From a virus, in the IMG/VR virus record IMGVR_UViG_3300030328_003715, positions 1 to 24,813 of that record: a stretch of 24,813 bases of DNA. One strand, 5' to 3'. Shown in pieces: positions 1,621 through 20,900 of this stretch. Both the position numbers and the translations under genes were made by a program. The stretch's first letter is position 1; each line of letters begins with the position of its first letter. The notes beneath the pieces were generated by a model. The model worked only from the letters and a program-made list of their open reading frames with translations, searched no databases and was not told the DNA's origin.

Positions 1621-4600
1621 ATGCCTAAGTATTTTAGTGGTAGAGTAAAAAGAACCCCACAGAGCGGTTTAACGTCTGATAGGTATCAATATCTTAGTAT
1701 TGAACAAGCAGAACCCAATTTAGGTGATCCACCTGAAGTTGATAATATTCCTGGTGGACAACAATATCAAATTGTTTCTGTTGAAACGCATCCAGGAGAA
1801 AGATTTTGGAAACCTATTGGTGGTGGAGTTCAACCAGGTGCTATAACTGTTAGAAATGATGGAACTATTCTTCCAAATACTGCAGGTCTTAATAGTACTA
1901 CTGAGTTGAATATAAAAGGTAATATTCTTACTGCAGTTGGTACTTTAGATGCTGATGGTAATCCAGGAACAGCAGTTACGATTACTGCTGCTCCTATAGG
2001 AGATGATCATCAAGTTATTTTTAATAATAATGGAGAATTTGGTGCAGCAAGTGGATTGTCTTATGATAATACTAATAGTAGAGTTGGTATAGCAAGTACT
2101 CAACCACAAGAAACTCTTGATATTGATGGTACTTTATTCATTACTGGAAATGTATTTGATAAAGATCATGATTCTGGAGATACCGATCAAGTTCTTGTAA
2201 GAAGTGCCACTGGTGGATTAGTTTGGGCAGACCAATCAATAGATGGAGTTTCAGTTGCTGCTGGTGATAAAACACAAGTTCAATATCATGGTTCTGATGG
2301 AAAAATAACTGGTGGTAAATTACTTGTTTATGATTATACTAATGGTATCACTGATGAACGTGTTGGTATAGGAAGTACTCAACCAACTAGATTGTTGGAT
2401 GTTCTAGGTAATTCTAGGTTTGTTGGAGTTACTACTTTTGTAGGTAATGTTTTTGTTGAAGGTGCTGTAACATCTGAAGATGTAACTAATATAGATTCTC
2501 TTGGTATTGTTACAGCAGGACAAGGACTTAGAGCTAGTAATGGTGGATTGAAAGTTGTTGGTATTACCACTCTTGAAAATACAAGAATTCTTCATAATAA
2601 GGCATTATATTTTGGTAAGGATGAAGATAATAATTTAGAAATTAAATTTGATGGAACAGACTCTGTTATTAATGATATATCATCTGCAAATTTAGGTTTT
2701 AAGTTACAGCAAGGTGGGAATACTAGATTAGAAGTTACTGGAGCAGGTGTAACTGTTACTGGAGTCACAACTACTAATATTCTTTCTGTAACTGGACTTG
2801 TAACCAGTCATTTAATACCAAGTCCTTCTGATGTTGGCCTTTTTGATTTGGGATCTCCTAATAATAGATGGGATAATATCTATGCTAATAATATTAACGG
2901 TGGGATATATAGTCCAGTTGCAATAAATGTAGAACAATTAAAGGTAACAGGAATTTCTACACTCAAGAACTTGGAAGTTTCTGGTATGTCTACCTTTATA
3001 GGATTATCTACTTTCAGTGATGGTTTAGAGGTAATATCTGGTGTAACTACATTTGCTGGTATTACAACAGTAACTGGTGAGACTTTATTTACAAAACAAT
3101 TTAGTGTTTCTGGTGTTTCTAGTATTGGAACTGCATCTGCAACTGATTTATATGTAAGTGGATTATCTACATTTGTAGGATTTTCCACATTTAAAGATGA
3201 TGTATTTGTTGCTGGTGTATCTACATTTATAGGATTCACTACATTTAGGAATGATGTACATGTAACTGGTCTTTCCACATTTGTAGGATTTTCTACATTT
3301 GGAGATGTTATTGTTGGTGGAATGTCTACTTTTGTAGGTATATCCAGTTTTGAGGGTAATGTATCATTCAATGCAGGTATTAGAGATAAAGATGGTGAAT
3401 TGGGTGGACCAACTGAGGGATATATTTTAGAGTCTAGAGATGGTAAAGTAAATTGGGCAAATCCTCAAGGATTAACTGTAGAAAATGCTAATAAGGTTGG
3501 TATTGGATCTACGGATAAAGATTCAATTTATTATCCTGCTTTTGTTAAAAATAATAATGAACATGATGATAGACAAAATGAATATCTTTATAATACTCAT
3601 GATTTCATCTATTCTTATGATGGGAATGCAGGTATAGGTTCTGTTGGTATTGGAACTGATATAATATCTGATGATACCACGTTAAATGTTACTGGTATAA
3701 CATCATTTAAAGGTAGTGTATATTTTAATGGTCTTCAAAATAATATTGGATTTACTTCACTTACTTGGCAAAGTGGTACAGGTAAATTGGAGTTTAAAGA
3801 TGAAGTACAAGCTACCTTTGGTAGTAAAACAGGCGGCGATTTACGGATATATCATACTGCGAGTCTTCAAGGTGAACTTGATAAGAATGGAGATCCTATT
3901 ACAAAGAATAATAATACTAACTGCTCATTTATTCATGAGAAAGGATCGGGTGGATTAGTATTCAGGTCAGATGGTGGAGGTGGTCCAGGAGCATTCCAAT
4001 TCTTTGATGAAGATTGGAGACCATTATTAAGATTGCATAGTGGTAATAATGCAAGAGCTCTTTTATATCATAGTGGAAAAGAAAGGTTAGAAACTATAGG
4101 AACTGGTGTTACCGTAACAGGAATAACTACAACTAATAGTTTATCTGTATCTGGTATTTCTTCTTTCTGGGGTCCAGTATGGGATGAAACTGGAAGTCCA
4201 GGTCAATCCACTTATCTTTTAGAATCAACAGTAACAGGAGTTAATTGGAAGTCTCCAGATGATATAACAGTTCAGAATGCCTTTAAAGTTGGTGTTGGTA
4301 CTACTGGAGCAGTATCTGTTGGTGCAACTTCAATCTATTACCCTACTTTTGTTGATTCTAATAATACAGAAGGTAGAGATATGGAATATCTCTATTCTGG
4401 TAATGCCTTAACTTACAACGTTCATTATGAAGATGGTAATGATGTTGGGATAGGTTCTATTGGTATTGGAACGACTACACCAAATACTACTCTAGATGTT
4501 CTTGGTATAACTTCTTTTAGAGGAGATGTATATTTTAATGGTATTGATGATAATGATGGTAGTGTAGGAATAACTTCTATTACTTGGAAACCATCTTCAT

Positions 4601-7600
4601 CTGCACTAGAGTTTAAAGATAATGTAAAAGCAGTATTTGGTGATGGTAACGATTTACAAATATATCATGATACTAATGATACAGAACCTAATAGTGTTGT
4701 TGAACATAATAATCCTGCTGCTTCAGCATTATACTTATCAAGTAATCAAAGAGTTGAAATAACAGATGAAAATCATGTAAATTTAAGTCTTCGTTTTAAT
4801 AATACTGGTAATTATGAGACAGAATTGTTTCGTGGTACTGCTAAAAAATTAGAAACCACTGATGCTGGAATTAAAGTTACTGGTCTTACTACTACTGGTT
4901 CATTAAGACTTGATGGTGCATTTTATGATAAAGATAATAGTTATGGTACAGAAAGTGGATATATTTTAGAAACAAGACAAAGTGGTGGTGTAGCATGGGT
5001 TTCTCCTAGTGACTTGACAACTATTAATGCTAGTAAAATTGGTATAGGTAGTATAAATGCAGCAGATGCTGGTATTGGAACACATTTTATAACTTTTGTT
5101 GATGAAAATCATCCTCATGATGATAGAAAGAGTGAGAAAGTTTATTCAACTGGTTTATTTGTTTATGACCCTCAAGATAATGGTAGAGTTGGTATTGGAA
5201 CCACAATTCCATCTGATACTTTAAGTGTTAGTGGTATAACTTCATTTAAAGGTAATGTATATTTTAATGGTACTGATGAAAATAATCTTGGTATTACTTC
5301 ACTTACTTGGAGAAGATCTGCAGGAATATTAGAATTTAAAACTAACGTAAAAGCAATATTTGGTGATGATGATAGTGATGAGCTTCCAGGATTAGAAATT
5401 TATCAGGATGGAAGTGATGCTATTATTCATAATAATGGAGAAGGTAATTTAAATTTAAAAACATATGGAGGATCTTTAATACAACTTCTTGGTAATAATA
5501 CTGAGTCAATGGTTGTTGCTAAATCAAATTCTTCTGTTGATTTATATTATGATGGAGGTGGTCCAAAATTACAAACTTCTGGTATAGGAATTACGGTAAC
5601 AGGACTTACTAGTACCACAGACTTGATGGTTAAAGGTAAATTTTATGATGGTGATAATGAATCAGGTGAACTTAATGAAGTATTAACTTCTCAAGGAGGT
5701 ATTGTAAAATGGACTAATCCAGGTAGTTTATCAGCTGATACTGCTTATAGAGTTAATACTGTTGGTGTTGCTACTGATCGTGCATATCATTTAACATTTG
5801 TTGAGGATAATAATGCTGATCCAGGTCAACCTGAAGGTGTTTATACTGGTGCTGGAATAACATTTAATGGTAATCACAGTCATCTATATCTTGATGGATC
5901 TCTTTGGTTAAAAGGAGAAAATGGTACATCTGGTGATATTATTAGTTATGGTGGTGATGATGGTATTTTTGGAATTTTTAGTCGTGGATCCGCTTTTATG
6001 GGGATAAGTGTAAAGGATACTGTTATTGTAAGTGATAATGATGTAGGAATTGTTAGTTTTATTTCAGAAAATGGTGCTAGGAAAACATATTTTAATTCAA
6101 ATGTAAATCCAAAGACAAATCAGACTTATAATTTAGCAGAAAGTAATTCTCATCGTTGGGCTAATGTTTATGCTCAAAATTATCATGGAGAATTTTTCAA
6201 CATTTATGATTCTGATAGTACTAATAAAATTACTCTTCAAGCTCCAGCCACAGGAAATTTAACAGCAGATTATACACTTACATTACCTGTAGATGATGGA
6301 GAGGCAGATGAGGTTCTTAAAACTGATGGAAGTGGAAATTTAAGTTGGACTACAAATACTCCTGGAACACCAACATTAGATAAAATAGAAGAAGGTAATA
6401 CATCAGCAGAAGTAGTTGATACTGGTACTAATGGACACTTCAAGGTAATAACAGAAGGAACCGAAAGACTTCAAATCAATAAAGATGGTAGATTTTTATT
6501 AAGAAGTGGAACAACAAGTTCTCAATCAAAAACTGGTGGATTTGAGAATGCACTCCAAATAGAAGGAATAGATGCATCAACTGCAAGTATCTCAATTACA
6601 AGAAATAGTGATGATGAACATCCAGCATACATTAATTTTGGTAAGTCAAGAGGAACTGCTGTAGGTTCAGATGGTGCTGTTAAAGGTGGTGATAATATAG
6701 CGCAAATTGATTTTAGTGGTTCTGATGGTAGTGGTGATTATAATGTTTTTGGTGGAATAAGATCTCAAGTTGATGAAGCAAGTGGTGTTGTTGTTGATAA
6801 TGATGAATCACCAGGTAGATTAGCATTCTACACAACTCCTGCTGCTAGTACTAATCCAATAGAAAGACTTCGTATCACAAAAGATGGTGCTATTGGAATT
6901 GATGCTGGAGGTGCTGGAAGAAATGCCACTCAAATTTATGGATCGAATGGTCAGGTATTAAAGAGTGGTGGAGATGGTGTAAGTGTTTATTGGGGTGCTG
7001 AAGGTACTGGTAATGCTGTTACTGATGTATTTGTTAAACAATATAAGGATGATTTAAGTCAGAGCAATCCAAGAACTGAAAGAGAATGTGATGCTTTAGA
7101 TGCACCTATTACTGTTGTTACTAGTGCTGGTACTTCAGTTATAGGTATTGGTTCAACCAGTAATGCTTATGGTAAAAGGTATATTGGTGATACTGAACCT
7201 ACTGGTAATCTTTGTGAAGGTGATATTTGGTATGATACCAGTGCTTCTGCTGGTGTTAATGGTAGTACAGGAATAACTAAGGTTGCATTATTAGAATATA
7301 GAACAGATAGTAGTACTGGTGATTTAGGTTCGATTACTGCAAACGAATGGACATCAAGAGCACTAAGTGATAAGGTTGACCCTCAAGGTTTTGTTACTTT
7401 TCCAGTAGCTACTGATACAGCCACTATAAAGACTGAGTTTTCATTGGGTTCAGGTACTTACCGAATAAAATGGAGTGTTCCTGCTGGTAGAATGGATAGG
7501 CATCAAACATCTCTTCGATATAGTACCGATTCTACTTTTTCTTCTTATGATAGGGTTTTAGGAAGTTCTGAATGTGTTGAAAATAGTGCCAATACGGTAC

Positions 7601-10600
7601 AAAGTAGATCATTTGGTGAAACTATATTAACTCTTAGTGAAAGAACATACTTTAAAATGTATTCGATAATTGATGGTGTTGCAGTTGGTGGTATGTCACC
7701 AACTAGAGGTTTTAATACTGCTGCAATTTTTGGTGATGGTAGGACTATTACTGGTGGAGATGCACCTGATAAGTCAGTTTATACACAAATATCGATAGAA
7801 GATTTAGCAACTGCTGTTAAAGAAGTAGATGTATTAAACACAGGAATAACTAGAGTTGCATTAATAAAAGATGCAAAGATTGATAGTGTAAACGGTGGAG
7901 GATTTGCTGCAGGTGCGTGGAGAGATAGAGATTTAACAGAAATAGAAGATCCTCAAAGTTTTGTTAATTTTAATAGTAATGGTGGAACAAAGACCACTCC
8001 AAGTACTGGACTTAAACCTGGTTATTGGTCATTACAACCAGGAACTTATAAGATAGAATGGAGTGCTCCTGCAAAGAGTAATGATCGTCATATGAGTAGA
8101 TTGGTTTGGAGTATAGTTGAAGGACAAATTTCAGCTTCTGGTCTTCATGCATCAGCATCATATGTTGAGGGTTCAACTGAATATAGTGATCCTTCACAAA
8201 CAAGATCATTCGGTTCTAAGGTTATAAAGATCACTCAACCAACTTGGTTTAAGATTATGCATTATTGTACTAGTGATATTTCAGGTGCAACTGATGGATT
8301 TGGTCGAAAATTGTCTACTGCTGGTGCTGGAGATCCTGATAACATTTATACGGAAGTAAGAATAGAAGACTTAGCAACTGCTGTTAAAGAAGTAGATGTA
8401 GTAAACACAGGAATAACTAAGGTTGCAACAATAAAAGATCAAAGACCTGTCACTGCAGGAAATCCAGCATCTGATCATGGAGGGGATGCTGCTATAGGTC
8501 CGAATATTAGAAAATTTAATACATTAGATGATACAAATAATATTGGTATTACTCTTCATAATACTGCCACTATTGGAAATGGTTTCGCAACAATAATTAA
8601 AGTACCTGCAGGTACTTATAGTATTAAATGGTCAGCTCCTGCTTATAATGTAGATACACATAATACTGTATTACAATATTCTACTAGTGATAGTGTAAAT
8701 GTTGATGGGAGACTTGACAGTAATGTAAGTTCAGTACAGGGTTCTTCCGAGTTTTCTGCAACAGAGGAAGAAATGACAGCTGCAGCATGGACAGGTGGTA
8801 ATGTTGATAAAACTATCAATCACACAGCTTCATCTTCATTTGGAACTATTGCTTCTATAACCTTTGTTCAAGACACCTATATTCAATTATCGCATTGGTG
8901 TGAATATGCATTCAGTATTTATGGACTTGGTTCTGCCAACTATTCTGCAAATGCTGGTGATTCAGTTTATGCACAAATAGAAATAGAAGATTTAAAAACT
9001 GCTGTTAAAGAAAATACAGGAAAAACTAAAGTTGCTCTATTAAAAGACCAGAAGAATTATAATGTACAGGGTGGAACTTTTACGAAGGATGCATGGAGAG
9101 ATAGAGATTTAACAGTAAAAGAAGATCCTTATGGTTTTGTTAATCTTGTTCCTACTCCCAATGGTCAGACAACTGCAGGTACTAATGGAAACACTCCTGG
9201 TTATTGGTCACTACCAGCAGGAACTTATAAGATAGAATGGAATGCTCCTGGAATGAATGTTAATCGTCATATAACTAGATTGATTTGGAGTACTACGAAA
9301 GAAGACATTTCAGATCCTGGTATGCCTAATTCTTTAGAATCTACTGGTAATTATGCTCAAGGTTCATCTGAAAATACAACTGGAGAAGGTACTGGAACAA
9401 TACCTACATCGACAAGATCATTCGGTTCTAAGATTGTAGAAATTACCGACACCACTTGGTTTAAGATTGTTCATTGGTGTAACGAAACCCAGGCTAATAC
9501 TGGATTTGGTCAAAGAGTGGCCGATTCCTTGGGTGCAACTAATTCTTCAATTTATACGGAAATAAAGATAGAAGACTTAGCAACTGCTGTTAAAAATGCT
9601 GGAGATGATTATGTTGCAGGAACATCTAAAGTTGCTCTATTAAAAGACCAGAAAGACTTTGGAACAACTGGTGGTGATTTTAATCAGGATGCATGGGTAG
9701 ATAGAGATTTAACTGTAGAAGAAGATCCATTTGATTTTGTAACTTTTTATCCAACTTCAAATGGTCAAAACGTAAAGAGTGGTGGAATTACACCTGGTAG
9801 TTTTTCACTGCCAGCAGGAACCTATAAGATAGACTGGAGTGCTCCTGGTTTTAATGTCAATCGTCATAAAACTAGATTAGTTTATAGTACTACCTCATCA
9901 CATATTACAAATGCTGGACTTGATGGAGGAGCATCATATGTCGAAGGTTCAAATGAAAATACTACTAATGCTAATAATGAGCATGTTCAGTCTGTTAGTA
10001 CTGGATCTAAAATTATAACTACCACTGCTTCGGAAACATATTTTAAAATTATGCATTGGGCTACAGAACCTAAAAGTGATGTAGGACTTGGACACGGTAT
10101 GAACCCTGGAGGTAGTTATAATACTGGACCAGAAATTTATACCCAAGTAAGGATAGAAGACTTAGCAACTGCTGTTAAAAATGCATCAGCAGATAAAATA
10201 GAAGAAGGTAATACATCAGCAGAAGTAGTTGATACTGGTACTGATGGACACTTCAAGGTAACAACAGAAGGAACAGAAAGACTTCGTATCACATCAGAGG
10301 GTGATACAATAACTATAGGAAGACAGTATCTTTCTCGTAGGAATAGCACTGCTGCTTCTAAAACTAGTCTTAAAGAAACTTTTTATTATGAAGTAGCAAA
10401 TGGAGCTTCTCAAGCTTTCCAACTAGAAGGAACTCCTTATGGGGGTGGTTTAGTTACTGTTGTTAGTATGAGAGATGCTAACGCAACATTTATGACAACA
10501 AGAACCTATCAAATTGGGTTAAGAGGAACAAATAATTCTAGTTTAGATTGGATGAATGCAGCCTGCGATGGAGAAAGTGGTGGATCTAGTTATTCAGTTG

Positions 10601-10692
10601 CAGGATCTTCAGCAGGTATTACAGTTACAAATGATAGTGGAAACACAAGTGATATTTTTGTAACTTTTGATGTCCACGGTTTTATACCATAA
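1621..10692 (+). CDS. Giant tail fibre / adhesin protein, 3023 aa
   Basis: A very long virion fibre protein, about three times the length of T4 gp37. It starts with ATG one base after the previous stop; no Shine-Dalgarno is visible, so coupling is likely. Domains in order: N-terminal attachment region (residues 1-150); GIASTQP..TLDIDG and GIGSTQP..LLDVLG fibre motifs (about 155-262); GxSTFxGxSTF shaft repeats (about 440-585); three copies of a module with YYP.FV....R..EYLY, GITSFKG.VYFNG and LEF...V.A.FG (about 620-1275), plus a partial fourth (1373-1480); a LTLPVDDGEADEVLKTDG motif (about 1550); DKIEEGNTSAEVVDTG (1587); five tandem domains of about 190 aa (1884-2857); a second DKIEEGNTSAEVVDTG (2858); and a compact beta-rich end of about 115 aa ending in FDVHGFIP. 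No S74 chaperone or signal peptide is seen. It is probably a homotrimer reaching out from the baseplate with the C-terminal domains binding the host surface; the trimer and receptor roles are inferred from the family. Confidence 0.85.
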   Translation: MPKYFSGRVKRTPQSGLTSDRYQYLSIEQAEPNLGDPPEVDNIPGGQQYQIVSVETHPGERFWKPIGGGVQPGAITVRNDGTILPNTAGLNSTTELNIKGNILTAVGTLDADGNPGTAVTITAAPIGDDHQVIFNNNGEFGAASGLSYDNTNSRVGIASTQPQETLDIDGTLFITGNVFDKDHDSGDTDQVLVRSATGGLVWADQSIDGVSVAAGDKTQVQYHGSDGKITGGKLLVYDYTNGITDERVGIGSTQPTRLLDVLGNSRFVGVTTFVGNVFVEGAVTSEDVTNIDSLGIVTAGQGLRASNGGLKVVGITTLENTRILHNKALYFGKDEDNNLEIKFDGTDSVINDISSANLGFKLQQGGNTRLEVTGAGVTVTGVTTTNILSVTGLVTSHLIPSPSDVGLFDLGSPNNRWDNIYANNINGGIYSPVAINVEQLKVTGISTLKNLEVSGMSTFIGLSTFSDGLEVISGVTTFAGITTVTGETLFTKQFSVSGVSSIGTASATDLYVSGLSTFVGFSTFKDDVFVAGVSTFIGFTTFRNDVHVTGLSTFVGFSTFGDVIVGGMSTFVGISSFEGNVSFNAGIRDKDGELGGPTEGYILESRDGKVNWANPQGLTVENANKVGIGSTDKDSIYYPAFVKNNNEHDDRQNEYLYNTHDFIYSYDGNAGIGSVGIGTDIISDDTTLNVTGITSFKGSVYFNGLQNNIGFTSLTWQSGTGKLEFKDEVQATFGSKTGGDLRIYHTASLQGELDKNGDPITKNNNTNCSFIHEKGSGGLVFRSDGGGGPGAFQFFDEDWRPLLRLHSGNNARALLYHSGKERLETIGTGVTVTGITTTNSLSVSGISSFWGPVWDETGSPGQSTYLLESTVTGVNWKSPDDITVQNAFKVGVGTTGAVSVGATSIYYPTFVDSNNTEGRDMEYLYSGNALTYNVHYEDGNDVGIGSIGIGTTTPNTTLDVLGITSFRGDVYFNGIDDNDGSVGITSITWKPSSSALEFKDNVKAVFGDGNDLQIYHDTNDTEPNSVVEHNNPAASALYLSSNQRVEITDENHVNLSLRFNNTGNYETELFRGTAKKLETTDAGIKVTGLTTTGSLRLDGAFYDKDNSYGTESGYILETRQSGGVAWVSPSDLTTINASKIGIGSINAADAGIGTHFITFVDENHPHDDRKSEKVYSTGLFVYDPQDNGRVGIGTTIPSDTLSVSGITSFKGNVYFNGTDENNLGITSLTWRRSAGILEFKTNVKAIFGDDDSDELPGLEIYQDGSDAIIHNNGEGNLNLKTYGGSLIQLLGNNTESMVVAKSNSSVDLYYDGGGPKLQTSGIGITVTGLTSTTDLMVKGKFYDGDNESGELNEVLTSQGGIVKWTNPGSLSADTAYRVNTVGVATDRAYHLTFVEDNNADPGQPEGVYTGAGITFNGNHSHLYLDGSLWLKGENGTSGDIISYGGDDGIFGIFSRGSAFMGISVKDTVIVSDNDVGIVSFISENGARKTYFNSNVNPKTNQTYNLAESNSHRWANVYAQNYHGEFFNIYDSDSTNKITLQAPATGNLTADYTLTLPVDDGEADEVLKTDGSGNLSWTTNTPGTPTLDKIEEGNTSAEVVDTGTNGHFKVITEGTERLQINKDGRFLLRSGTTSSQSKTGGFENALQIEGIDASTASISITRNSDDEHPAYINFGKSRGTAVGSDGAVKGGDNIAQIDFSGSDGSGDYNVFGGIRSQVDEASGVVVDNDESPGRLAFYTTPAASTNPIERLRITKDGAIGIDAGGAGRNATQIYGSNGQVLKSGGDGVSVYWGAEGTGNAVTDVFVKQYKDDLSQSNPRTERECDALDAPITVVTSAGTSVIGIGSTSNAYGKRYIGDTEPTGNLCEGDIWYDTSASAGVNGSTGITKVALLEYRTDSSTGDLGSITANEWTSRALSDKVDPQGFVTFPVATDTATIKTEFSLGSGTYRIKWSVPAGRMDRHQTSLRYSTDSTFSSYDRVLGSSECVENSANTVQSRSFGETILTLSERTYFKMYSIIDGVAVGGMSPTRGFNTAAIFGDGRTITGGDAPDKSVYTQISIEDLATAVKEVDVLNTGITRVALIKDAKIDSVNGGGFAAGAWRDRDLTEIEDPQSFVNFNSNGGTKTTPSTGLKPGYWSLQPGTYKIEWSAPAKSNDRHMSRLVWSIVEGQISASGLHASASYVEGSTEYSDPSQTRSFGSKVIKITQPTWFKIMHYCTSDISGATDGFGRKLSTAGAGDPDNIYTEVRIEDLATAVKEVDVVNTGITKVATIKDQRPVTAGNPASDHGGDAAIGPNIRKFNTLDDTNNIGITLHNTATIGNGFATIIKVPAGTYSIKWSAPAYNVDTHNTVLQYSTSDSVNVDGRLDSNVSSVQGSSEFSATEEEMTAAAWTGGNVDKTINHTASSSFGTIASITFVQDTYIQLSHWCEYAFSIYGLGSANYSANAGDSVYAQIEIEDLKTAVKENTGKTKVALLKDQKNYNVQGGTFTKDAWRDRDLTVKEDPYGFVNLVPTPNGQTTAGTNGNTPGYWSLPAGTYKIEWNAPGMNVNRHITRLIWSTTKEDISDPGMPNSLESTGNYAQGSSENTTGEGTGTIPTSTRSFGSKIVEITDTTWFKIVHWCNETQANTGFGQRVADSLGATNSSIYTEIKIEDLATAVKNAGDDYVAGTSKVALLKDQKDFGTTGGDFNQDAWVDRDLTVEEDPFDFVTFYPTSNGQNVKSGGITPGSFSLPAGTYKIDWSAPGFNVNRHKTRLVYSTTSSHITNAGLDGGASYVEGSNENTTNANNEHVQSVSTGSKIITTTASETYFKIMHWATEPKSDVGLGHGMNPGGSYNTGPEIYTQVRIEDLATAVKNASADKIEEGNTSAEVVDTGTDGHFKVTTEGTERLRITSEGDTITIGRQYLSRRNSTAASKTSLKETFYYEVANGASQAFQLEGTPYGGGLVTVVSMRDANATFMTTRTYQIGLRGTNNSSLDWMNAACDGESGGSSYSVAGSSAGITVTNDSGNTSDIFVTFDVHGFIP
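2953..3365 (+). repeat. GxSTFxGxSTF beta-repeat shaft
   Basis: This stretch of the 3023-aa protein encodes repeated units of the form (V)SGxSTFxGxSTFxxDVxV, about 16-20 residues each, with at least seven recognisable units. Short hydrophobic, Ser/Thr and Gly alternation of this kind is typical of a beta-helical or triple-beta fibre shaft. Similar units recur in the gene at the right end (near nt 24020-24190). Confidence 0.75.
3478..5440 (+). repeat. Three copies of a fibre module (YYPxFV / SFKGxVYFNG / LEFKxxVKAxFG)
   Basis: Three copies begin near nt 3478, 4270 and 5020. Each has in order: a KVGIGST-like strand; (Y/I)(Y/T)(P/F).FV followed by acidic/His-rich residues and R..E.(L/V)Y; a VGIGT segment; (T/S)L.V.GITSF(K/R)G.VYFNG; GITS(L/I)TW; and LEFK..V.A.FG followed by L.IY. 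The spacer between copies carries a VTVTG(I/L)TTT strand and a YDKD or WDETG start. A partial fourth copy lies near 5737-5960, and related starts occur in the next fibre gene near 10795 and 12275. Confidence 0.75.
6379..6471 (+). repeat. 93-bp direct repeat, copy 1
   Basis: Encodes DKIEEGNTSAEVVDTGTNGH and the following FKVITEGTERL. It matches the copy at 10192-10284 at 90 of 93 bases by direct comparison and is in the same reading frame. The two copies bracket the region that holds the five tandem domains. A diverged third version, with IVEKDTSAEVVDVG, is at about 12832-12930 in the next gene. Confidence 0.9.
7270..10191 (+). repeat. Five tandem ~190-aa adhesin-like domains
   Basis: Domain starts at nt 7270, 7843, 8410, 9019 and 9619 are 189-203 residues apart. 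Each begins (I/K/S)(T/S)(K/R)VA(L/T)(L/I)(K/E), has a Gly-Thr-Tyr-(K/R/S)-Ile-(K/E/D)-Trp strand followed by (A/V)P and .(D/N)RH or DTH, then a (R/S)SFG or similar strand, a H(W/Y)(C/A) or equivalent position, and closes with Y(T/A)(Q/E)...IEDL.TAVK. Copies 2, 4 and 5 carry AW.DRDLT; copy 1 is diverged and copy 3 replaces that strand with a different sequence. This resembles a beta-sandwich (jelly-roll) domain common in phage tail proteins; the fold and ligand binding are inferred. Confidence 0.8.
10192..10284 (+). repeat. 93-bp direct repeat, copy 2
   Basis: Near-perfect partner of 6379-6471, differing at three positions (one changing Asn to Asp, one Ile to Thr, one silent). It follows directly on the last of the five tandem domains and precedes the C-terminal beta domain. 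Confidence 0.9.
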
Positions 10693-10724: not shown

Positions 10725-13700
10725 ATGGCAATTAAAGTATACAAAGGTGGTTCTTGGGTTAATGCGACAGGTGTTTCTGCAATAGGAAAGGCTGATAGAC
10801 TTGCTATTGGGCAGACTGATACTTCTCTTGCTACATCAGATAAAAATTATTATCTTTCTTTTGTTGATGAAAATCATTCCCATACTGACAGAAAATATGA
10901 AGATTTTTATACTGGTATTGGAATAACCTATAGTCCTATTAGTAGGTCTCTTGGTGTAGGTGGTGTATTATATTTGAGTGGAACTTGTAATAATTTTCAG
11001 GGATCTATAAGAAGTTATGGTGGAGCAGATAAATTATTTGTTTTATATAATGAAAGTTCTGAAGGTATAATTTCTATAAATCCAGCAAATAGTGCTGGAG
11101 ATACTGTAGGACTTGTTACTTTTAAAAGCAGTACTGCGGATGGAAATAAATCGTATTTTAAATCAGATGTAAGTCCAACTATAGATTGTACTGGGATTTT
11201 TGATTTAGGAAAAGCAGATAAAAAATGGAATAAGGTTTATGCCAATTGTTTCATAGGTAATGGTAGTGGACTGGATGGTACTGGTCATTGGGATGAGGAT
11301 GTTTATAAAAACTTAAAGGCAGGTACTTATGCTGGTAATGCTATTACTGCACAGACTTGTTATAATATTTTTGTAGGAGCATATGCTGGTTGTAAGACTA
11401 CTGGTGCTGGTGGTGCTGGTGGTTCTGATGAAGTTGGAGATGCTAATGTTTTCTTAGGTGCTTCTGCTGGAAGGCACAATATTACTGGATCTTATAATTT
11501 TTATGGTGGATATCTTGCTGGACGTGGTAAAATTGATTCATCACCATCTGGATGTTGTAATATTTTTATTGGTAGATCTGCTGGACAAGAAATTACTAGT
11601 GGTAAACAAAATGTATTTTTAGGTCCCCTTGCAGGTGAGGCAATGGAGACTGGAGATAATAATATTTTCTTGGGTTTATCTGCTGGTCGTTATGCATCTT
11701 CAGCATCTTACACAATTGGAATTGGTCTTGGTGCAGGATTATGCAATACCAGTGCGAATGGTAATACTTTCTTAGGGGCTTATGCAGGTCGTGGTGTTAC
11801 TAGTGGTGGTAATAATGTTGCAATTGGTTCTAATGCATTAAGAGGAAGATTAGTAACTGTAGGGGATACAGAAGTCTCTTGTGATATTCTTGGAATACAA
11901 AATACTGCTATTGGTTTTAAGGCTGGTTTTTGTCTAGGACCACTTGCAGTAGATCAAGGTGCAAATACATTTTTAGGAGCACAGGCAGCATGTACTCAAT
12001 TAGATGGAAGTTTTAATGTTGCAATAGGGTATCAAGTTGAATTAGATCTTAAAACATGCGCTAATGCATCTTGTGTTAGTAATCAATTAGCCATTGGTGC
12101 TGGTTCTAATCGTTGGTTAACTGGTGATAAGAGTTTTAATATTAAACCTGGTAGAGGTATAATAGATTGTGCTGGAAGTTCTGGTGGTAGTGCTCAAGTA
12201 TTAACTGCCATTGAAGATGGTGGTGCATCATATGTAAAATGGGAAACAAATTCAGCTGTTGCAACTAATGCGGATAAGGTTGGTATTGGAACGACCGATA
12301 ATGCAAATGGAGATGATGTACAAAGTTACTATGTTTCTTTTGTTAGAGATAATAATGCTCATAATAGTAGACAATATGAGCAATTGTATAGTGATAGTAA
12401 ATTAGTTTATAATTATAAGGCATCTAATGATACTAGTACATTTGGTATTGGAACTAATAATCCACAATCACCGTTACATATTCAGAATTCTGGACCTCAA
12501 CTTCAATGGACAGATTCTGATGATAATTCCGATTCTAAAATCAGATATAATAGCCCAAATTTTATAATTGAAGCAGACTCTAATAATGAAGCAGAAGACA
12601 GTAATATTTCATTTAGAATTGATGGTTCATTAGTTCATCCTAATGAAAAACTTCGCATCACATCAGCAGGTCATGTTGGTATAGGAACCACAAATCCAAT
12701 TGCTGATGATGCTATTATTGGTAAAACAATTAAAGATTATCTTGAGGATAATAATAGTGTTTTAGCTGTTGGTATCGTTACTGCTCGTGACTATTATGGT
12801 AATTTTAAAGGTACTATTGATAGTACAATTGATAAAATAGTAGAAAAAGATACATCTGCAGAAGTAGTTGATGTTGGTTTAACTACACACTTTACAATAA
12901 AAACAGATGGAATACAAAGACTTCGCATTGATGATGCAGGAATATCTACATTTAGTTCTGATAAAGCACTTGTAGCTAGATTCGAAAGAATTGGAAATAC
13001 TGATGGAAAATGGGCAAAGGTAGATATTAAAGCAAATACCACAGACGGAAATTCATATCTTACATTTAGTGATTCTGGTGCAACTGAAGTTGGTGCTATT
13101 AATTATGAACATAATGATGATACTCTAAGGTTTGAAGTATTGGATGTCAATAATGCTGATCCTCTTAAAAAAGTTAGAAGATCAAGATTACAGGTCGGAA
13201 ACGCTGGTCAAATTGGTCTTTGGGGTGGATACACACCTGACGGTTCAGGTATCAGTGATAGTTATGGAACGGATGGTCAAGTATTAACCAGTAAAGGTTC
13301 TTCTGCTGCAGCTATATGGCAAGATGCTAGTGACTTACCTGCAAGTACTGCAACAACATTAACTATTGGAACAGATGATAATGCTGGTGATCGTTATTTA
13401 ACCTTTGTTGCTGCTAGTGGAGATACTCAAAATGTATATATGGATAGTGAACTTAAGTATAATCCTAATACTGATACATTAACATCAGGTAATATAACCT
13501 CACCTAATGTAAGTGTTAGTACTCTGTTGAATGTTGAGGGTAATACAACACTTGGAAATAGTGCTAGTGAAGATACGATAACATTTACTGGTAAAGTTAA
13601 TAGTTCCGTATTACCAAAAACTAATGCAGATAATAAGGATGATGTTAGTGGTTTAGATCTTGGTGGAGGTAGTGCATATTGGAGAAACATTTATGCCAGA

Positions 13701-16700
13701 CAATTTACAGGTTCTTTATCTGGAGATTCTACATCTGCACAAGCATTAGATATTGGAACAGATAATAATGCTAATGATCGTTATTTAACCTTTGTTGCTG
13801 GTAGTGGAGATAGTAAAGATGTATATATGGATAGTGAACTTAAGTATAATTCTAGTACTGATACATTAACTCCTGTAAATTTAACTGTAACTGGAAATAC
13901 AACTCTTGGTAATACTAATGCTGATACAACAACATTCACTTCCAAGGTAGCCAGTCATATCATACCAGTATTGGAGGAAGATAATGAGACTGGTGTATCA
14001 GAATGGAATCTTGGAGAACTAGGTGCCAAATGGGGTACCGTTTTTGCTAATGAATTTAATGGTTCTTTTAGTGGATCAATAGAAAAAATTAATACAGCAA
14101 GTAGTGAAAATGAAAATACTACTTATCTAACATTTACTACGACTACACCAACTGATACTGATCGTGGTTCATTTCTTCTTGTAAATCCACACTTAAAGTT
14201 TAGATCAAATTCTGCAGATGATGGTGAGAAATTAACCGTTGATTGTCAACTTGATGTTACTGGTACTGCAACCTTAAATGGAAATGTTACATTAGGAGGT
14301 GCTGCAACTGATACTGCAACATTTAATAGTAAAGTTGCTAGTCATATATTCCCATCACATAATGCATCTGCTAGTGATGATGCTGATGGTAAAGATCTTG
14401 GTGATGGTTCCAACTATTGGAGAAAGGTTTATGCCAAAGAATATACTGGTAAGTTTATTGGTACTTTAGAATCAAGAAAAATTGCAATGACTGGTGATGT
14501 TGCATGGGAGGTTAATTTTGATGCTAGTGGTGATGTAACTGCAGATGGAACTATTCAACCAGGAGCAGTTGATGAAAGTATGATTAATATTACTAATGCT
14601 CCATCTGCGTCTACTGCTGGATATTTTCTTCAAACTAATGCATCTGGATCTTTAACTTGGGCTCAAGTTGCTGCTGGAGATGGAGTAAACCTCAATTTTG
14701 TTGATTTAGAAGATACACCTAGTGCTTACACTGATAATGCTAATAAACTTGTTGCAGTTAATGGTAATGCAGATGCATTAATATTTACTGATGCATCTTC
14801 TGTGGGTACTGATAGTTATGTTACTGGTGCTAGTTGGAGTAATATAACAGGAGGTAGACGATTAACTCTAACAAGAAATCAGAGTTTAGTAGATATAACA
14901 GCAGATCTTACTTTATCATCTCTTGGTGGTGCTAGTAATTTCTTAGATCTTACAGATACTCCTGAAAGTTATGGTACTACTAATGCAGGCGGTTTAGGTA
15001 AAGTTGTTGCAATTAATTCTACTAATGATGGATTAGAATTTGTTAGTAGAACTTATACATTACCTACTTTTGGTAATGCTAATGGAAGTAGTGGAATAAG
15101 ACTTTCTCTTGGTGGTACAAATAATGATGATGTAAACATTACAGGTGCTAATGGAATTACAGTAAAAGGTAATTCTAGTGGAGGTAATAATACATTAACA
15201 ATTGGTTGTGAAGATGGATTTTCTTCGAATAAGGTTAATATAACATTGAAATCTGATAATGCAACATACTATCCTACATTTGTTTCTGGAAATACTGCTG
15301 AAGGTAAAGAAGTACATCAAGATAGTGATGGTTTAACATACAATCCACATGCTAATTTATTAACAACTGGTACTCTTATGACAGGAGTTTTAGATGCTAC
15401 TGGTGCTGCAAGCTTAAATGGAAATGTTACATTAGGAGATGCTGCAGCTGATACTGTAACATTTAATGCAAAGAGTACTACAATAATACCATCAGGTGAT
15501 AGTGGTACTCAGAATTTGGGTAGTGAAAATAATAAATGGGGTACTGTTTATGCTGATAATATTACAGGAACATTGACTGTTCCTACTGCAGAACACCAAG
15601 TTTTATATACAGGACTATCGGGTACTAATCCAATAGTTGCTGGTACTAATGAGTTTACATTTATAACAGAACCTAATTCTAAAGAGAAAGCTGTAAATAT
15701 ATTAAAAATTTCTCATCTTACTAGTCCTGATGATAGGGGAGAGGTATTTGCTTATGGTGGTAACGATGTTAATTATGCTTCTATAAGTGGTGATGGTGGT
15801 ATAGAAATATGTAGGGGTACTAGTGATACTGGTTTGGAGGATGGTGGAGCATATATTGATTTTAAAGATAGTTCTGAAGGTGAGAATTATGATGCTCGTA
15901 TACAATTAACAAAACAAGGTTTAGGTGCTGACTGGGATGCTGGTGATAATTATGGAATATTATTTGAAACTGGTGGAATAGGAAAACGACATATGTTGTT
16001 AACTGAGGAAGGAACTTTAGGTATAACAACTTCTAATGTTGGTGCTGGTGCAATAGTTAAGAAAGCAAGTAGAACAATTGGATTTGCTCCAGGATATTCT
16101 AGAGATACTGCATCCTTTATAGACGGTGCAGTTGCTTTGGATGTTAATGGTACAGCATTACTTCGTAGACATGATAATGTAAAGCAAGGTGGTCAGATAA
16201 CATTCTGTAATAGTGATGATACTGTAGCATATAGTATTGATGTCAAGGGTACTACTGCTGCTAATTCTGTACTTAGAATCATTGATGAAAAAACACTAGC
16301 TGATAATGATACTAGAGGGACTCAAAGATATGTAATTAATAGAAGTGGTGCATTTGGTATTGGAGATGAAGGTGCTGCAGATTATGGAGAAAACGGCCAG
16401 TTTTTAAAAAGTACAGGTGATGATTCTCAGCCTGTATGGGATGCTATTTCTACAATTGATAGTTATGTTACTGGTGCTAGTTTTAGTAATATAACCGATG
16501 GCAAAAGACTTACTTTAAATAGAAATCAGGGTTTAACAAATATAACAGCAGATTTCACTTTCCCCAATCTAGCACGTGGTATGTACTTTAAGCATTGGAC
16601 GAACGGTACCAATACATGGAAACCAAAAACAGGGTCTCCTGCTGATTATGATCAGTTTCTGGTTATATGTATTGGTGGTGGTGGTGGATCTGGTAGAGCA

Positions 16701-17162
16701 GAAGGTCAAGATGATGATGGTTGTGATGGTTCTACCACTGGTGGTGGAGGAGGTGGAGGTTGCGCCATCAGTTACTTTAATCAATCTTCATTGAGTGGTA
16801 ATTATAGTGTTGTTGTTGGAGGAGGTGGAGCAGCAGGAAAGGCAGGTAGTAATGGTCAATCAGGTGGACAAAGTAAGGTAACAGGTACCAATATGACTGT
16901 TAAAGCTAATGGTGGAGGTGGTTCTTCTAATACTGGTATTGGACAAAGATCTGCTGGTGGAAGTGGTGGTACTATTTCAAATGGTACTCTTAAGTTTACA
17001 GGTATGCCTGGTGGGAGGTCAGATGCTGCTGGTGCTGGTGGAAGTGCTGGTGGTTTGGGTGGTAGTAACTATGGTAAAGGTGGAGCTGGTAGAAGTGTAT
17101 GTAATCAATCAACAAATGGAAATGCTGGTAATAAGGGTGTTGTAATAATTCTTGGATGGTAA
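10725..17162 (+). CDS. Giant tail fibre protein with glycine-rich distal tip, 2145 aa
   Basis: Starts MAIKVYKGGSWVNATG, a short N-terminus also seen on other marine phage fibre proteins. Domains in order: fibre module with YYLSFVDENH (about residues 35-75); LGKADKKWNKVYA (about 162-174); a series of about 13 NxFxGxxAG repeats (about 214-460) with unusually many cysteines; a second YYVSFV...R..EQLY module (about 530); GIGT.NP..PLHI and LRITSAGHVGIGTTNP motifs; a diverged SAEVVDVG repeat; several repeated modules with DNA-level duplication (13365-15467); two F.DL.DTP..Y motifs (about 1325 and 1406); and a glycine-rich tip (about 1984-2145) ending GVVIILGW. There is no S74 domain; the chaperone-like gene follows directly. 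No Shine-Dalgarno is visible. The protein is probably a trimeric fibre with a receptor-binding tip; this is inferred from motifs and gene order. Confidence 0.85.
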   Translation: MAIKVYKGGSWVNATGVSAIGKADRLAIGQTDTSLATSDKNYYLSFVDENHSHTDRKYEDFYTGIGITYSPISRSLGVGGVLYLSGTCNNFQGSIRSYGGADKLFVLYNESSEGIISINPANSAGDTVGLVTFKSSTADGNKSYFKSDVSPTIDCTGIFDLGKADKKWNKVYANCFIGNGSGLDGTGHWDEDVYKNLKAGTYAGNAITAQTCYNIFVGAYAGCKTTGAGGAGGSDEVGDANVFLGASAGRHNITGSYNFYGGYLAGRGKIDSSPSGCCNIFIGRSAGQEITSGKQNVFLGPLAGEAMETGDNNIFLGLSAGRYASSASYTIGIGLGAGLCNTSANGNTFLGAYAGRGVTSGGNNVAIGSNALRGRLVTVGDTEVSCDILGIQNTAIGFKAGFCLGPLAVDQGANTFLGAQAACTQLDGSFNVAIGYQVELDLKTCANASCVSNQLAIGAGSNRWLTGDKSFNIKPGRGIIDCAGSSGGSAQVLTAIEDGGASYVKWETNSAVATNADKVGIGTTDNANGDDVQSYYVSFVRDNNAHNSRQYEQLYSDSKLVYNYKASNDTSTFGIGTNNPQSPLHIQNSGPQLQWTDSDDNSDSKIRYNSPNFIIEADSNNEAEDSNISFRIDGSLVHPNEKLRITSAGHVGIGTTNPIADDAIIGKTIKDYLEDNNSVLAVGIVTARDYYGNFKGTIDSTIDKIVEKDTSAEVVDVGLTTHFTIKTDGIQRLRIDDAGISTFSSDKALVARFERIGNTDGKWAKVDIKANTTDGNSYLTFSDSGATEVGAINYEHNDDTLRFEVLDVNNADPLKKVRRSRLQVGNAGQIGLWGGYTPDGSGISDSYGTDGQVLTSKGSSAAAIWQDASDLPASTATTLTIGTDDNAGDRYLTFVAASGDTQNVYMDSELKYNPNTDTLTSGNITSPNVSVSTLLNVEGNTTLGNSASEDTITFTGKVNSSVLPKTNADNKDDVSGLDLGGGSAYWRNIYARQFTGSLSGDSTSAQALDIGTDNNANDRYLTFVAGSGDSKDVYMDSELKYNSSTDTLTPVNLTVTGNTTLGNTNADTTTFTSKVASHIIPVLEEDNETGVSEWNLGELGAKWGTVFANEFNGSFSGSIEKINTASSENENTTYLTFTTTTPTDTDRGSFLLVNPHLKFRSNSADDGEKLTVDCQLDVTGTATLNGNVTLGGAATDTATFNSKVASHIFPSHNASASDDADGKDLGDGSNYWRKVYAKEYTGKFIGTLESRKIAMTGDVAWEVNFDASGDVTADGTIQPGAVDESMINITNAPSASTAGYFLQTNASGSLTWAQVAAGDGVNLNFVDLEDTPSAYTDNANKLVAVNGNADALIFTDASSVGTDSYVTGASWSNITGGRRLTLTRNQSLVDITADLTLSSLGGASNFLDLTDTPESYGTTNAGGLGKVVAINSTNDGLEFVSRTYTLPTFGNANGSSGIRLSLGGTNNDDVNITGANGITVKGNSSGGNNTLTIGCEDGFSSNKVNITLKSDNATYYPTFVSGNTAEGKEVHQDSDGLTYNPHANLLTTGTLMTGVLDATGAASLNGNVTLGDAAADTVTFNAKSTTIIPSGDSGTQNLGSENNKWGTVYADNITGTLTVPTAEHQVLYTGLSGTNPIVAGTNEFTFITEPNSKEKAVNILKISHLTSPDDRGEVFAYGGNDVNYASISGDGGIEICRGTSDTGLEDGGAYIDFKDSSEGENYDARIQLTKQGLGADWDAGDNYGILFETGGIGKRHMLLTEEGTLGITTSNVGAGAIVKKASRTIGFAPGYSRDTASFIDGAVALDVNGTALLRRHDNVKQGGQITFCNSDDTVAYSIDVKGTTAANSVLRIIDEKTLADNDTRGTQRYVINRSGAFGIGDEGAADYGENGQFLKSTGDDSQPVWDAISTIDSYVTGASFSNITDGKRLTLNRNQGLTNITADFTFPNLARGMYFKHWTNGTNTWKPKTGSPADYDQFLVICIGGGGGSGRAEGQDDDGCDGSTTGGGGGGGCAISYFNQSSLSGNYSVVVGGGGAAGKAGSNGQSGGQSKVTGTNMTVKANGGGGSSNTGIGQRSAGGSGGTISNGTLKFTGMPGGRSDAAGAGGSAGGLGGSNYGKGGAGRSVCNQSTNGNAGNKGVVIILGW
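11365..12110 (+). repeat. NxFxGxxAG repeat head (YadA/Hep_Hag-like)
   Basis: About 13 units such as NIFVGAYAG, NVFLGASAG, NIFIGRSAG, NVFLGPLAG, NTFLGAYAG and NTAIGFKAG, often joined by .TG..N. The pattern resembles the left-handed beta-roll repeats of trimeric adhesin heads and of many phage fibres. The last units are degenerate (NVAIGYQVE, NQLAIGAGS). Confidence 0.75.
13365..13463 (+). repeat. 99-bp direct repeat, copy 1
   Basis: Matches 13752-13850 at 92 of 99 bases by direct comparison; both are in frame and encode IGTD(D/N)NA.DRYLTFVA.SGD followed by VYMDSELKYN. The copies are 387 bases apart, consistent with a tandem duplication of one fibre module. Confidence 0.9.
13752..13850 (+). repeat. 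99-bp direct repeat, copy 2
   Basis: Partner of 13365-13463 with seven mismatches, most of which change an amino acid. The module continues into N.TLGN....T.TF..KV.S, which is also shared in weaker form by both copies. Confidence 0.9.
14268..14327 (+). repeat. 60-bp direct repeat, copy 1
   Basis: Encodes ATLNGNVTLGGAATDTATFN. It matches 15408-15467 at 56 of 60 bases and in frame. Confidence 0.85.
14811..14906 (+). repeat. 96-bp diverged repeat, copy 1
   Basis: Encodes DSYVTGASWSNITGGRRLTL and the following RNQ.L..ITAD. The same motif recurs at 16458-16553, just before the glycine-rich tip. DNA identity is high in the first 25 bases and lower after that. Confidence 0.8.
15408..15467 (+). repeat. 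60-bp direct repeat, copy 2
   Basis: Partner of 14268-14327 with four mismatches. The segment that follows differs from that after copy 1 at first, then rejoins it at an LG....W..VYA motif. Confidence 0.85.
16458..16553 (+). repeat. 96-bp diverged repeat, copy 2
   Basis: Partner of 14811-14906, encoding DSYVTGASFSNITDGKRLTL and the following RNQ.L..ITAD. It sits about 120 bases before the start of the glycine-rich tip. Confidence 0.8.
16674..17159 (+). other. Glycine-rich C-terminal tip of the 2145-aa fibre
   Basis: About 160 residues with runs of glycine (five after ICI, seven after STT, four in VVGGGGAAG), spaced by short strands such as ISYFNQSSLSGNYSVVV and NGTLKFTG, and ending GVVIILGW. 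This matches the style of glycine-rich phage tip domains, of which T2/S16 gp38 with a polyglycine-II core is the best-known example. Homology to gp38 is not shown here; a receptor-binding tip is inferred. Confidence 0.6.
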
Positions 17163-17237: not shown

Positions 17238-17651
17238 ATGGGCATATACGCTGTTGTTGAAGATAACAAAATAACAAATGTAATAGAATGGGATGGTAAC
17301 ACAACCACTTGGACACCTCCTACTGGATCTACTATGGTTGGTATAGCATCCACAGAGTATGCTGGTATTGGTATTGGACAATCTTATATTGATGGAAAAT
17401 TTATAATACCAGAATATGTAGATCCAACACCTCTAAGTGAGTATTATGAACAAGTTAGAGAAAAAAGAAATAAAAAATTAACTGGTTCAGATTGGACTCA
17501 ATATACTGATAGTCCATTAGACTCTACTAAGAAGACAGAGTGGGCTACATATAGACAGGCACTAAGAGATTTGCCAGCAAATCTTACTGATAGTAATGTG
17601 AAGGATGTTATATATGTATCTCATTCATTTTGGCCAACAAAACCATCTTGA
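17238..17651 (+). CDS. Tail fibre assembly chaperone-like protein (137 aa)
   Basis: A small soluble protein probably helping the preceding fibre fold or trimerise. Residues 1-50 hold a start of the type MGIYAVVEDNKITNVIEW followed by a W.PP.GS strand and a GIG..Y.DGKF segment, as in many phage proteins beginning 'Y.VVENN.V.N'. Residues about 65-137 match the phage tail assembly chaperone-like (APC) pattern: RNK.L..SDWTQ..DSPL, K..WA.YRQALRDLP. The family's trait is the DWTQ...W..YR..LRDLP core, which is complete here. It follows a fibre gene, as Tfa-type chaperones usually do, with a 75-bp gap that contains a similar vestige. The start is supported by AGGAG seven bases upstream. The partner fibre is inferred from position. 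Confidence 0.75.
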   Translation: MGIYAVVEDNKITNVIEWDGNTTTWTPPTGSTMVGIASTEYAGIGIGQSYIDGKFIIPEYVDPTPLSEYYEQVREKRNKKLTGSDWTQYTDSPLDSTKKTEWATYRQALRDLPANLTDSNVKDVIYVSHSFWPTKPS

Positions 17652-17941: not shown

Positions 17942-20900
17942 ATGCCCCTGAATAAGCTAGATAATTTCCTAAAGAATGTAGAAGGTCGTATTCTTTATGT
18001 GAGTCCAAGTGATTTGGATTCGACGGATGACATTACAAATGAAGGTAATTCTCAGACAAGACCATTCAAAAGTCTGCAGAGAGCATTAATTGAAGCAGCA
18101 AGATTTTCTTATAATATAGGAAATAATAATGATTTAGTAGAGAAAACTACTATATTATTAATGCCAGGTGAGTATTTAATTGATAATAGACCTGGATATG
18201 GAATATTAGATAATGGTGGAGTTAAAGCATTAACACCTGGTGGGGCGCAAGTAAATGCATCCATATTCGATTTAACATTAGATTCTAATTTTGATTTAAA
18301 TCAAGCAGATAATGTACTTTACAGATATAATAGTGTTCATGGTGGAGTTATTGTACCTAGAGGTACCTCTATTGTTGGACTAGATTTAAGAAAGACGAAG
18401 ATAAGACCTAAGTATGTTCCTAACCCTACAGATGATACTGCAACATCTGCCATCTTTAGAATAACTGGTGGATGTTATTTCTGGCAGTTCTCTATTTTTG
18501 ATGGGAATGAAAATAGTGAAGTTTATGTTAATAATTCTGATGTTGAAAGACCAACGTTCTCTCACCATAAATTAACTGTATTTGAATATGCTGATGGAAT
18601 AAATAAACATCCTGTTACAGGTATAGATGATTTGAATATGTATTATCATAAGCTTTCTGTGGCTTATGATTCTGCATCTACGAGAAATATTCAAGATAAG
18701 TATCCTACAAGTACAAGAGGATTTTCATCTAGAAGACCAGAGTATGAAATTGTTGGTGCATTCGCCTCAGATCCTGTTTCTATAACTAAAATCTATGCAG
18801 GTGATGAAGTATATGCAACAAGTCAAGTTACTGTAGAAACTCAAAATGATCATAATTTTGATATAGGAACTCCTATTAAAATTAATGGTGTTAGTCCAGC
18901 TGATTATAATGTATCTGCTGTAGTTACACAAACATTTCCAAATGATTCTAAGAAATTTAAGTATACTCTTGCTGATTTCAATCCAGGATTAGAAACACCT
19001 GCTAATAATGTAACAGGTGCCACAGTAACTATTGAGACTGATACTGTTGATGGTGCATCTCCATATATCTTTAACTGTTCATTACGTTCAGTTTATGGTA
19101 TGAATGGTATGAAGGCAGATGGTAATAAGTCAACTGGATTTAAATCCATGGTTGTTGCTCAGTTTACTGGTGTCTCACTGCAAAAAGATGATAGAGCATT
19201 TGTAAAATATAATAAATCGAATAGATCATATGAAGGAATTAATATTGTAGCAACTCAACCACCTAGATTAGCACAAGAATCATCACCAACTAATCCTTCT
19301 AGGGTCTATCATTTAGATTCTGAGGCAATTTATAGATCTGGATGGGAAACCACACACGTTAATATTACTAATGATGCTATTCTTCAGATAGTTTCTGTGT
19401 TTGCTATTGGATATAATAAGCATTTTGCTGCAGAAAGTGGTGGTGATGCTTCTATCACAAACTCTAACTCTAACTTTGGACAAATTGCATTAGTTTCTGA
19501 TGGATTTAAGAAAGAAGCATTTGAAAAAGATGACACGAGTTATCTAACACATATTATCACACCAAAAGCAATTACTTCGGATGAAGAAGAAATTGATTGG
19601 ATGAGATTTTCTGCTGATACTGGTGGAAATGGTGTATCCAGTGATGGAAAAGTATATCTTGATGGATTTATAAGTGAAGATGTTAAACCACCATCTTTAA
19701 CCCAAGGTTATCGTATAGGTGCTAAAAAAGAAGATAAGATATTTGTTAAAGATGCCAATGGTGTTGAAAAATGGGCATACATTAGTATGATTGATGCTAA
19801 TGGTTCTATAAGCACTACTATTAGGAGTGTTAAAGAGTATTCAGTCGATTCACCATCAGATAAACTTTTCACACTATTTTCAGGAACACATCAACTTGCA
19901 ACAGGTGAAAAGGTTCTTGTTAGAAGTGAAGATGGAGATCTTCCTGAAAATATTGAAGAAGATGTAGTTTATTATGCAATTAGATATTCTAATTCACAAT
20001 TTAAATTAGCATCTTCTAAATCTAATGCTGATTTAGATGTTCCAATAGATGTTACTGGAGGAACAAATCTTAAAGTTCTAAGTAGAGTTACTGATAAAGA
20101 ATCTGGTGATATTGGTCATCCAATACAGTATGATAGTAGTAATAATCAGTGGTATATTGCAACCAATAGTCAAGCAGATCAGAACTCTCAAGGTGCTACA
20201 CTTTATGCTTATTTGGATAGTATAAAAGGTGCAGGTGTAAAAACAGAACCAACTTATGTTAAGAGAATAGCTGATAATAGAAATTTAATCGATAAAATAT
20301 ACAAATTAAGATTAACAATTCCTGGTGAAACCCTTCTTGCAAAGAATCCTGAAAATGGATTTGTTATACAAGAATCAAGTAGAACTGGTTATAGAAAAAA
20401 TGAAGATTTTACTGTAGATACAGATACTACTGACTTAACTAGAAATGATTATGATTATGCTAGAAATTTAAAGTATATTCGTAGTGCTACTTACAATAGT
20501 AGTATTCAAAAAGTAACTATAGGTGGTAATAGATCACATAATTTGAATATAGGTGATACTGTTGTAATTAAAGGTTTGAAATCATCAGGTAATACTACTG
20601 GTGAGGATAATGTTGGATACAATGGAACCTTTACTGTAGATGGTCTTATTGATAGTATGTCATTTACATATTCTCCAGGAAGATCTTTAGCTGCGGCAAC
20701 AACAAATCCGTTTGTAGGTAACGTTACTGCTGATGTATCATTACCTAGATTTGAAAGAATAGATATGCAATCAAATGTATATCTTTATAGAAATGAAATT
20801 TTTACAAATTATAATACAAGTGATTCTGTAGATGGTATATATCATGCATATCCATTAAATGCAAATAATAAATTACCTGTTGATGAAGGTGGATTTGAAA

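Follow-up and report, generated by a model that had tools for sequence, protein, structure and literature searches.

Does a near-identical repeat inside a giant tail-fiber gene mark out a removable cassette, or does it mark something else? The window analyzed here is a stretch of 24,813 nucleotides of the IMG/VR virus record IMGVR_UViG_3300030328_003715. The source record is itself a fragment, a viral contig of 27,465 bases. The initial annotation of this window described a 93-bp repeat bracketing five tandem domains and proposed that the segment could be removed or exchanged as a receptor-binding cassette. The repeat pair itself was confirmed. Positions 6379-6471 and 10192-10284 are equal at 90 of 93 bases, both copies lie in frame 0 of the ORF at 1621-10692, as had been claimed, and likeness is lost sharply at both edges of the pair. 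The copies are spaced by 3,813 bases (1,271 codons), and the longest exact run common to them is 51 bases. The features concerned are the following:

1621-10692, + strand: tail-fiber-like gene of 3,023 codons containing copies 1 and 2, with PHROG tail fiber matches at residues 1582-1780 and 2654-2824.
6379-6489, + strand: motif copy 1, 37 codons (repeat core 6379-6471), from repeat comparison and motif profile.
6490-6888, + strand: module on the 3' side of copy 1; this module and the motif together match the related locus L004 at 85% DNA identity over 511 bases, the upstream flanks being unrelated.
7267-10179, + strand: five tandem domains, predicted C1q/TNF-like jelly rolls, from an HMM count and a structure match for domain 5.
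7267-7821, 7840-8388, 8407-9009, 9016-9594 and 9616-10179, + strand: array domains 1 to 5, from the HMM.
10192-10302, + strand: motif copy 2 (core 10192-10284), directly 3' of domain 5, from repeat comparison, motif profile and HMM.
10303-10689, + strand: C-terminal domain; its L071 counterpart is 79% identical at the protein level and likewise comes after an array and the motif.
12831-12941, + strand: motif copy 3, diverged, in the next tail-fiber gene (10725-17162), from the motif profile.

A further gene lies at 17942-23548. Its first 1,000 residues are 49-55% identical in protein to its closest relatives (best 15 of 460 records), which are, among those same best 15 of 460, tail-fiber proteins of Synechococcus phages and a single-cell marine virus. 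The window is therefore regarded as a cyanophage-like tail-fiber cluster. Between these fiber genes, at 17238-17651, is a small gene for a tail-fiber assembly chaperone (Pfam Phage_tail_APC at 66 bits). L072 and L073 have it at about 80% identity, although the fiber gene that precedes it is just 40-48% alike.

Copies 1 and 2 show an excess of synonymous identity. At 28 of the 29 sites where both encode the same residue, the codons are identical, compared to 16.3 expected from the codon usage of the window (P = 4.9e-7). Other repeats in the same protein are diverged at the DNA level, as had been noted, with those listed being 60-87% alike within ORF 1621-10692. The window repeat D9, compared in frame, has 127 of 147 bases equal. 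The core of copy 3 (12831-12923) is 75% alike to the 93-base repeat. The near-identical pair is not the only one of its kind in the window, as the next gene also has high-identity short repeats. A 75-base direct repeat in that gene (14253-14327 and 15393-15467) is 92% alike, with 19 of 19 same-residue codons equal and 10.7 expected, which is another sign of recent copying inside the fiber cluster. A 151-base direct repeat in the same gene (13348-13498 and 13735-13885) is 87% alike.

In translation the repeat reads DKIEEGNTSAEVVDTGT-GHFKV-TEGTERL, which is the core of a motif 37 residues long (DKIEEGNT...TEGTERLRI). For the motif, block-end and cluster-pair analyses, 77 of 248 loci were used. 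A profile search detected the motif at full length in 72 of these 77 records, with 85 copies; the five records without the full motif were left out of the motif count. Also left out of the counts were L001-L003 (the window's own record), L069 (the contig of L043) and other loci from the same contig. The motif is present in tail-fiber genes of many viral contigs and a few cultured phages. Nine cultured-phage records have it, some phages being counted as two records, and in Prochlorococcus phage P-TIM68 it lies inside a gene annotated as tail fiber. The region 6301-6600 had no DNA match among cultured phages. Genome contigs of bacteria and archaea, searched with copy 1 and the next 74 residues, yielded 114 pattern matches, none of which was confirmed as a relative. 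Same-residue codon identity of the motif between records averages only 0.45, and therefore DNA homology in the motif is good only among near relatives. In the structure model of motif copy 1 (whole-model mean pLDDT 65.7), the motif is predicted to form four beta strands, at a pLDDT of about 80. Foldseek with this model gave no match below 0.001, and a PDB sequence search with the alignments of the motif and of the array domain gave none either. No account of this motif was found in the literature searched, with the motif string included among the queries, and the available part of PMC6957217 held nothing bearing on this subject.

The array-domain HMM identified the domain in 18 ORFs, at 1 to 5 copies each; the window's five are included, and some of the ORFs are one contig fetched twice. 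Array domain 2 alone as a query gave 3 pattern matches, none of them confirmed. There was no Pfam C1q/TNF match to the array domain. The model of domain 5 is a jelly roll, with residues 10-100 mostly at pLDDT 67-94 and weaker values beyond. Plain Foldseek with this model found weak matches only; with a second-look aligner, the nearest structures were C1q/TNF-like heads, BclA among them (Z 12.3 over 137 residues, rmsd 3.3). From this model, the array domain is predicted to have a C1q/TNF-like jelly-roll fold. The likeness to the BclA C-terminal domain is a match of fold only, at about 11% sequence identity, and the window differs in having up to five tandem domains in a phage fiber. C1q/TNF-like jelly-roll domains usually trimerise. 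A receptor-binding role therefore suits the array, and we infer such a role for it.

The fate of the sequences on either side of the motif was followed through similarity block ends and through pairs of flanks. Inside motif-bearing ORFs, 43 of 134 ends of DNA similarity blocks (at least 200 bases and at least 75% identity) coincided in both records with an edge of the motif, compared to 5.1 expected. Retrieval of the loci relied largely on the motif, and motif-touching blocks are therefore over-represented; the controls lessen this bias but do not remove it. Control motifs in the same genes gave 3 ends against 2.5 expected (GIGTxxP), 0 against 0.3 (GQVLxS) and 4 against 2.0 (other ERLRI sites). 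When ends were clustered by position and the edge rule was changed slightly, 26 of 102 were at edges, compared to 5.9 expected. Stricter blocks (at least 300 bases, 80% identity) left a small excess, with 4 of 45 ends against 2.0 expected.

For the comparison of flanks, three of the 85 motif copies were dropped for having fewer than 35 residues on a side, and the remaining 82 were merged beforehand to 64 clusters, which removes near-identical two-sided pairs. At 60% protein identity or more on one side, there were 83 cluster pairs, which are not independent. Likeness was confined to the upstream side in 48 and to the downstream side in 11, and these 59 pairs had no detectable likeness across the motif; the other side was weak in 21, and both sides were strong in 3. 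Many upstream-only pairs involve short N-terminal modules (about 40-77 residues), the familiar conserved-anchor pattern. Alignments would likewise stop at the edges of a conserved linker if the domains around it were fast-changing, and only one-sided pairs of high identity exclude that. L022 and L029 are identical at 150 of 150 upstream bases and have no protein likeness downstream. Window copy 1 and L004 are identical at 142 of 150 downstream bases and have no likeness upstream. L025 is a mosaic, resembling L034 upstream and L047 downstream. Window copy 3, L004 and L007 have a common upstream module and different downstream modules, that of L004 being the module behind window copy 1. The motif is thus a site where fiber modules are exchanged between phages, and to this extent the proposal of an exchangeable part stands, but the segment between the two copies was not observed as the unit of exchange. 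Two motif copies on one further contig (L008, at 6509 and 7796) have modules before the motif that are 73% alike and unrelated sequence behind it.

Why, then, are the two window copies near-identical? Their orthologous flanks are found apart, with the module after copy 1 in L004 and the module after copy 2 in L071. In the 93-base core, copy 1 matches L004 at 78 bases, copy 2 matches L071 at 76, and L004 matches L071 at 65, compared to the 90 that the window copies have in common. Each window copy is therefore just 82-84% identical to the motif beside its own orthologous flank. Codon identity to the L004 and L071 orthologs is lower in the motif (37 of 48) than in the adjoining modules (190 of 205; p = 0.003 pooled, p = 0.053 and 0.025 taken singly), and thus the motif has a history separate from its flanks. 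Outside the window, the motif closest to both copies is that of L007 (86 and 85 of 93 bases), whose upstream module is 69% alike to that of window copy 3. Because 28 of 29 codons are equal and each copy is farther from the motif beside its orthologous flank, copies 1 and 2 have been homogenized recently, most likely through gene conversion or through the arrival of one motif allele at both places. A crossover within the motif was looked for with four breakpoint tests, which gave p values of 0.10, 0.15, 0.18 and 0.37, none of them significant.

If the repeat worked as first proposed, recombination between the copies would excise 6472-10284 and produce long- and short-fiber forms of one phage. 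Clean in-frame excision of about 3.8 kb is possible in principle, given direct, in-frame, near-identical copies with their exact run, and adaptive deletions of 579-686 bases within gp37 are described for phage PP01 in the available part of PMC6027323. The viral-contig scans, however, showed no deletion form: in these fragmentary records, the sequence left of copy 1 was never found joined to that right of copy 2. Furthermore, 7 of the 8 closest records examined have a single motif copy. The five tandem domains are real, but about 780 bases separate the end of copy 1 from domain 1, and an unrelated module lies in that gap. In relatives, the repeat-bracketed segment was not seen as a unit; the array is found in other genes, with 1-4 domains and the motif just behind it. 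The motif follows the last array domain by 5-9 residues in seven distinct records (the window, L019, L024, L042, L043, L045 and L071), and therefore copy 2 belongs by rule to the 3' end of the array. Copy 1 is tied to a different module, the one common to L004. A motif before the array was found only in the window (about 260 residues upstream) and in L041 (about 200 residues upstream), and L041 has a single array domain, 61% identical to window domain 3, with no motif behind. The same repeat flanking different arrays, which the initial annotation suggested looking for, was not found in relatives; in the six named with the window, the motif stands only behind the array. We consider a removable cassette improbable. 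An assembler that joined two fiber genes at a shared repeat could also produce this arrangement, since the record is a viral contig and the parts of the giant gene are distributed over separate genes in L071, L068 and L004. The copy 1 upstream module gave 20 pattern matches in the viral-contig scan, none confirmed, and no other record showed the motif preceded by the left flank of copy 1. Such an artefact is very unlikely, with an exact run of just 51 bases and 3 differences in 93, and with copy 1 and its right flank recurring in L004 and copy 2 with both of its flanks recurring in L071.

Protein-level conservation alone would make the copies two old constrained linkers, alike through residue constraint and codon bias. 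The motif is indeed widespread at the protein level, the window has a strong codon bias, and copies 1 and 3 are also equal at 16 of 18 same-residue codons. This explanation is nevertheless unlikely in view of the codon excess between copies 1 and 2, the greater nearness of each copy to the other than to the motif beside its orthologous flank, and the module joins that are one-sided and have 85-100% DNA identity. Sharp edges of likeness would also fit a site-specific recombination target or an invertible cassette of the Mu/P1 kind, but the copies are direct, the window has no inverted repeats of at least 30 bases, and the hairpins close to the copies are short and weak. Records have no common DNA signature in the motif, as seen from their codon identity, and no recombinase was found among the window proteins searched in this fragment. 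We give the site-specific reading next to no weight.

The explanation that we favor, and regard as likely, is that the motif is an in-frame joint between interchangeable fiber modules, used by general recombination. A conserved, strand-rich linker of 31-37 residues would separate interchangeable modules in tail-fiber genes of aquatic phages. Because it is conserved in protein and, among kin, partly in DNA, it would offer an in-frame homology patch between otherwise unrelated fibers. General recombination in co-infected cells could then attach a different module on either side of it with the frame intact. We infer homologous recombination as the agent, and likewise any effect on host range.

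Related arrangements are known. In the T-even phages, the conserved motifs belong to gp37/gp38 and lie within the adhesin region. The likeness is that homology islands in fiber genes allow swaps of adhesin specificity; the difference is the gp37/gp38 setting, and the motifs are likened here by description, not by sequence. Recombination between conserved motifs in the distal tail fiber of T-even phages was reportedly described by Tetart in 1998, a study cited in PMC3797505. In the available part of PMC10408124, conserved motifs of 44 and 95 nt beside receptor-binding domains are reported in tailspikes of lytic coliphages as possible recombination hotspots. These are also short conserved coding stretches that adjoin an exchangeable receptor-binding part. 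As far as that part describes them, they lie at the N-terminal anchor end, one more motif being placed downstream of the gene, and were compared by description, not sequence; the window motif, unlike them, lies mid-fiber, at several positions and in several genes per phage, beside many module types, and in cyanophage-like contigs. Like a hotspot motif, it is a conserved stretch adjoining exchangeable domains with unrelated sequence beyond, and module changes concentrate at it, subject to ascertainment bias and with a small excess for long high-identity blocks. On the available description (PMC10408124), the joint motif is of the same kind as the motifs already proposed in coliphages, in another setting. 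Fiber-module exchange in marine phages is likewise reported in the accessible part of PMC10579305, where unrelated Alteromonas phages have common host-recognition modules; there, whole multi-gene modules are exchanged, whereas here sub-gene domains have a common seam.

A broader reading is possible but doubtful: the motif may be a transferable universal joint, one seam across many aquatic phages and several fiber genes, with likeness within a genome due to gene conversion. If this is true, any seam-ended module could be plugged into any fiber of the same or a co-infecting phage. 

Tail-fiber shuffling determines the bacteria to which a phage can attach. A recognizable seam allows module boundaries to be read from metagenome sequence, and it makes the reassortment of receptor-binding parts in aquatic phages, cyanophages included, testable.
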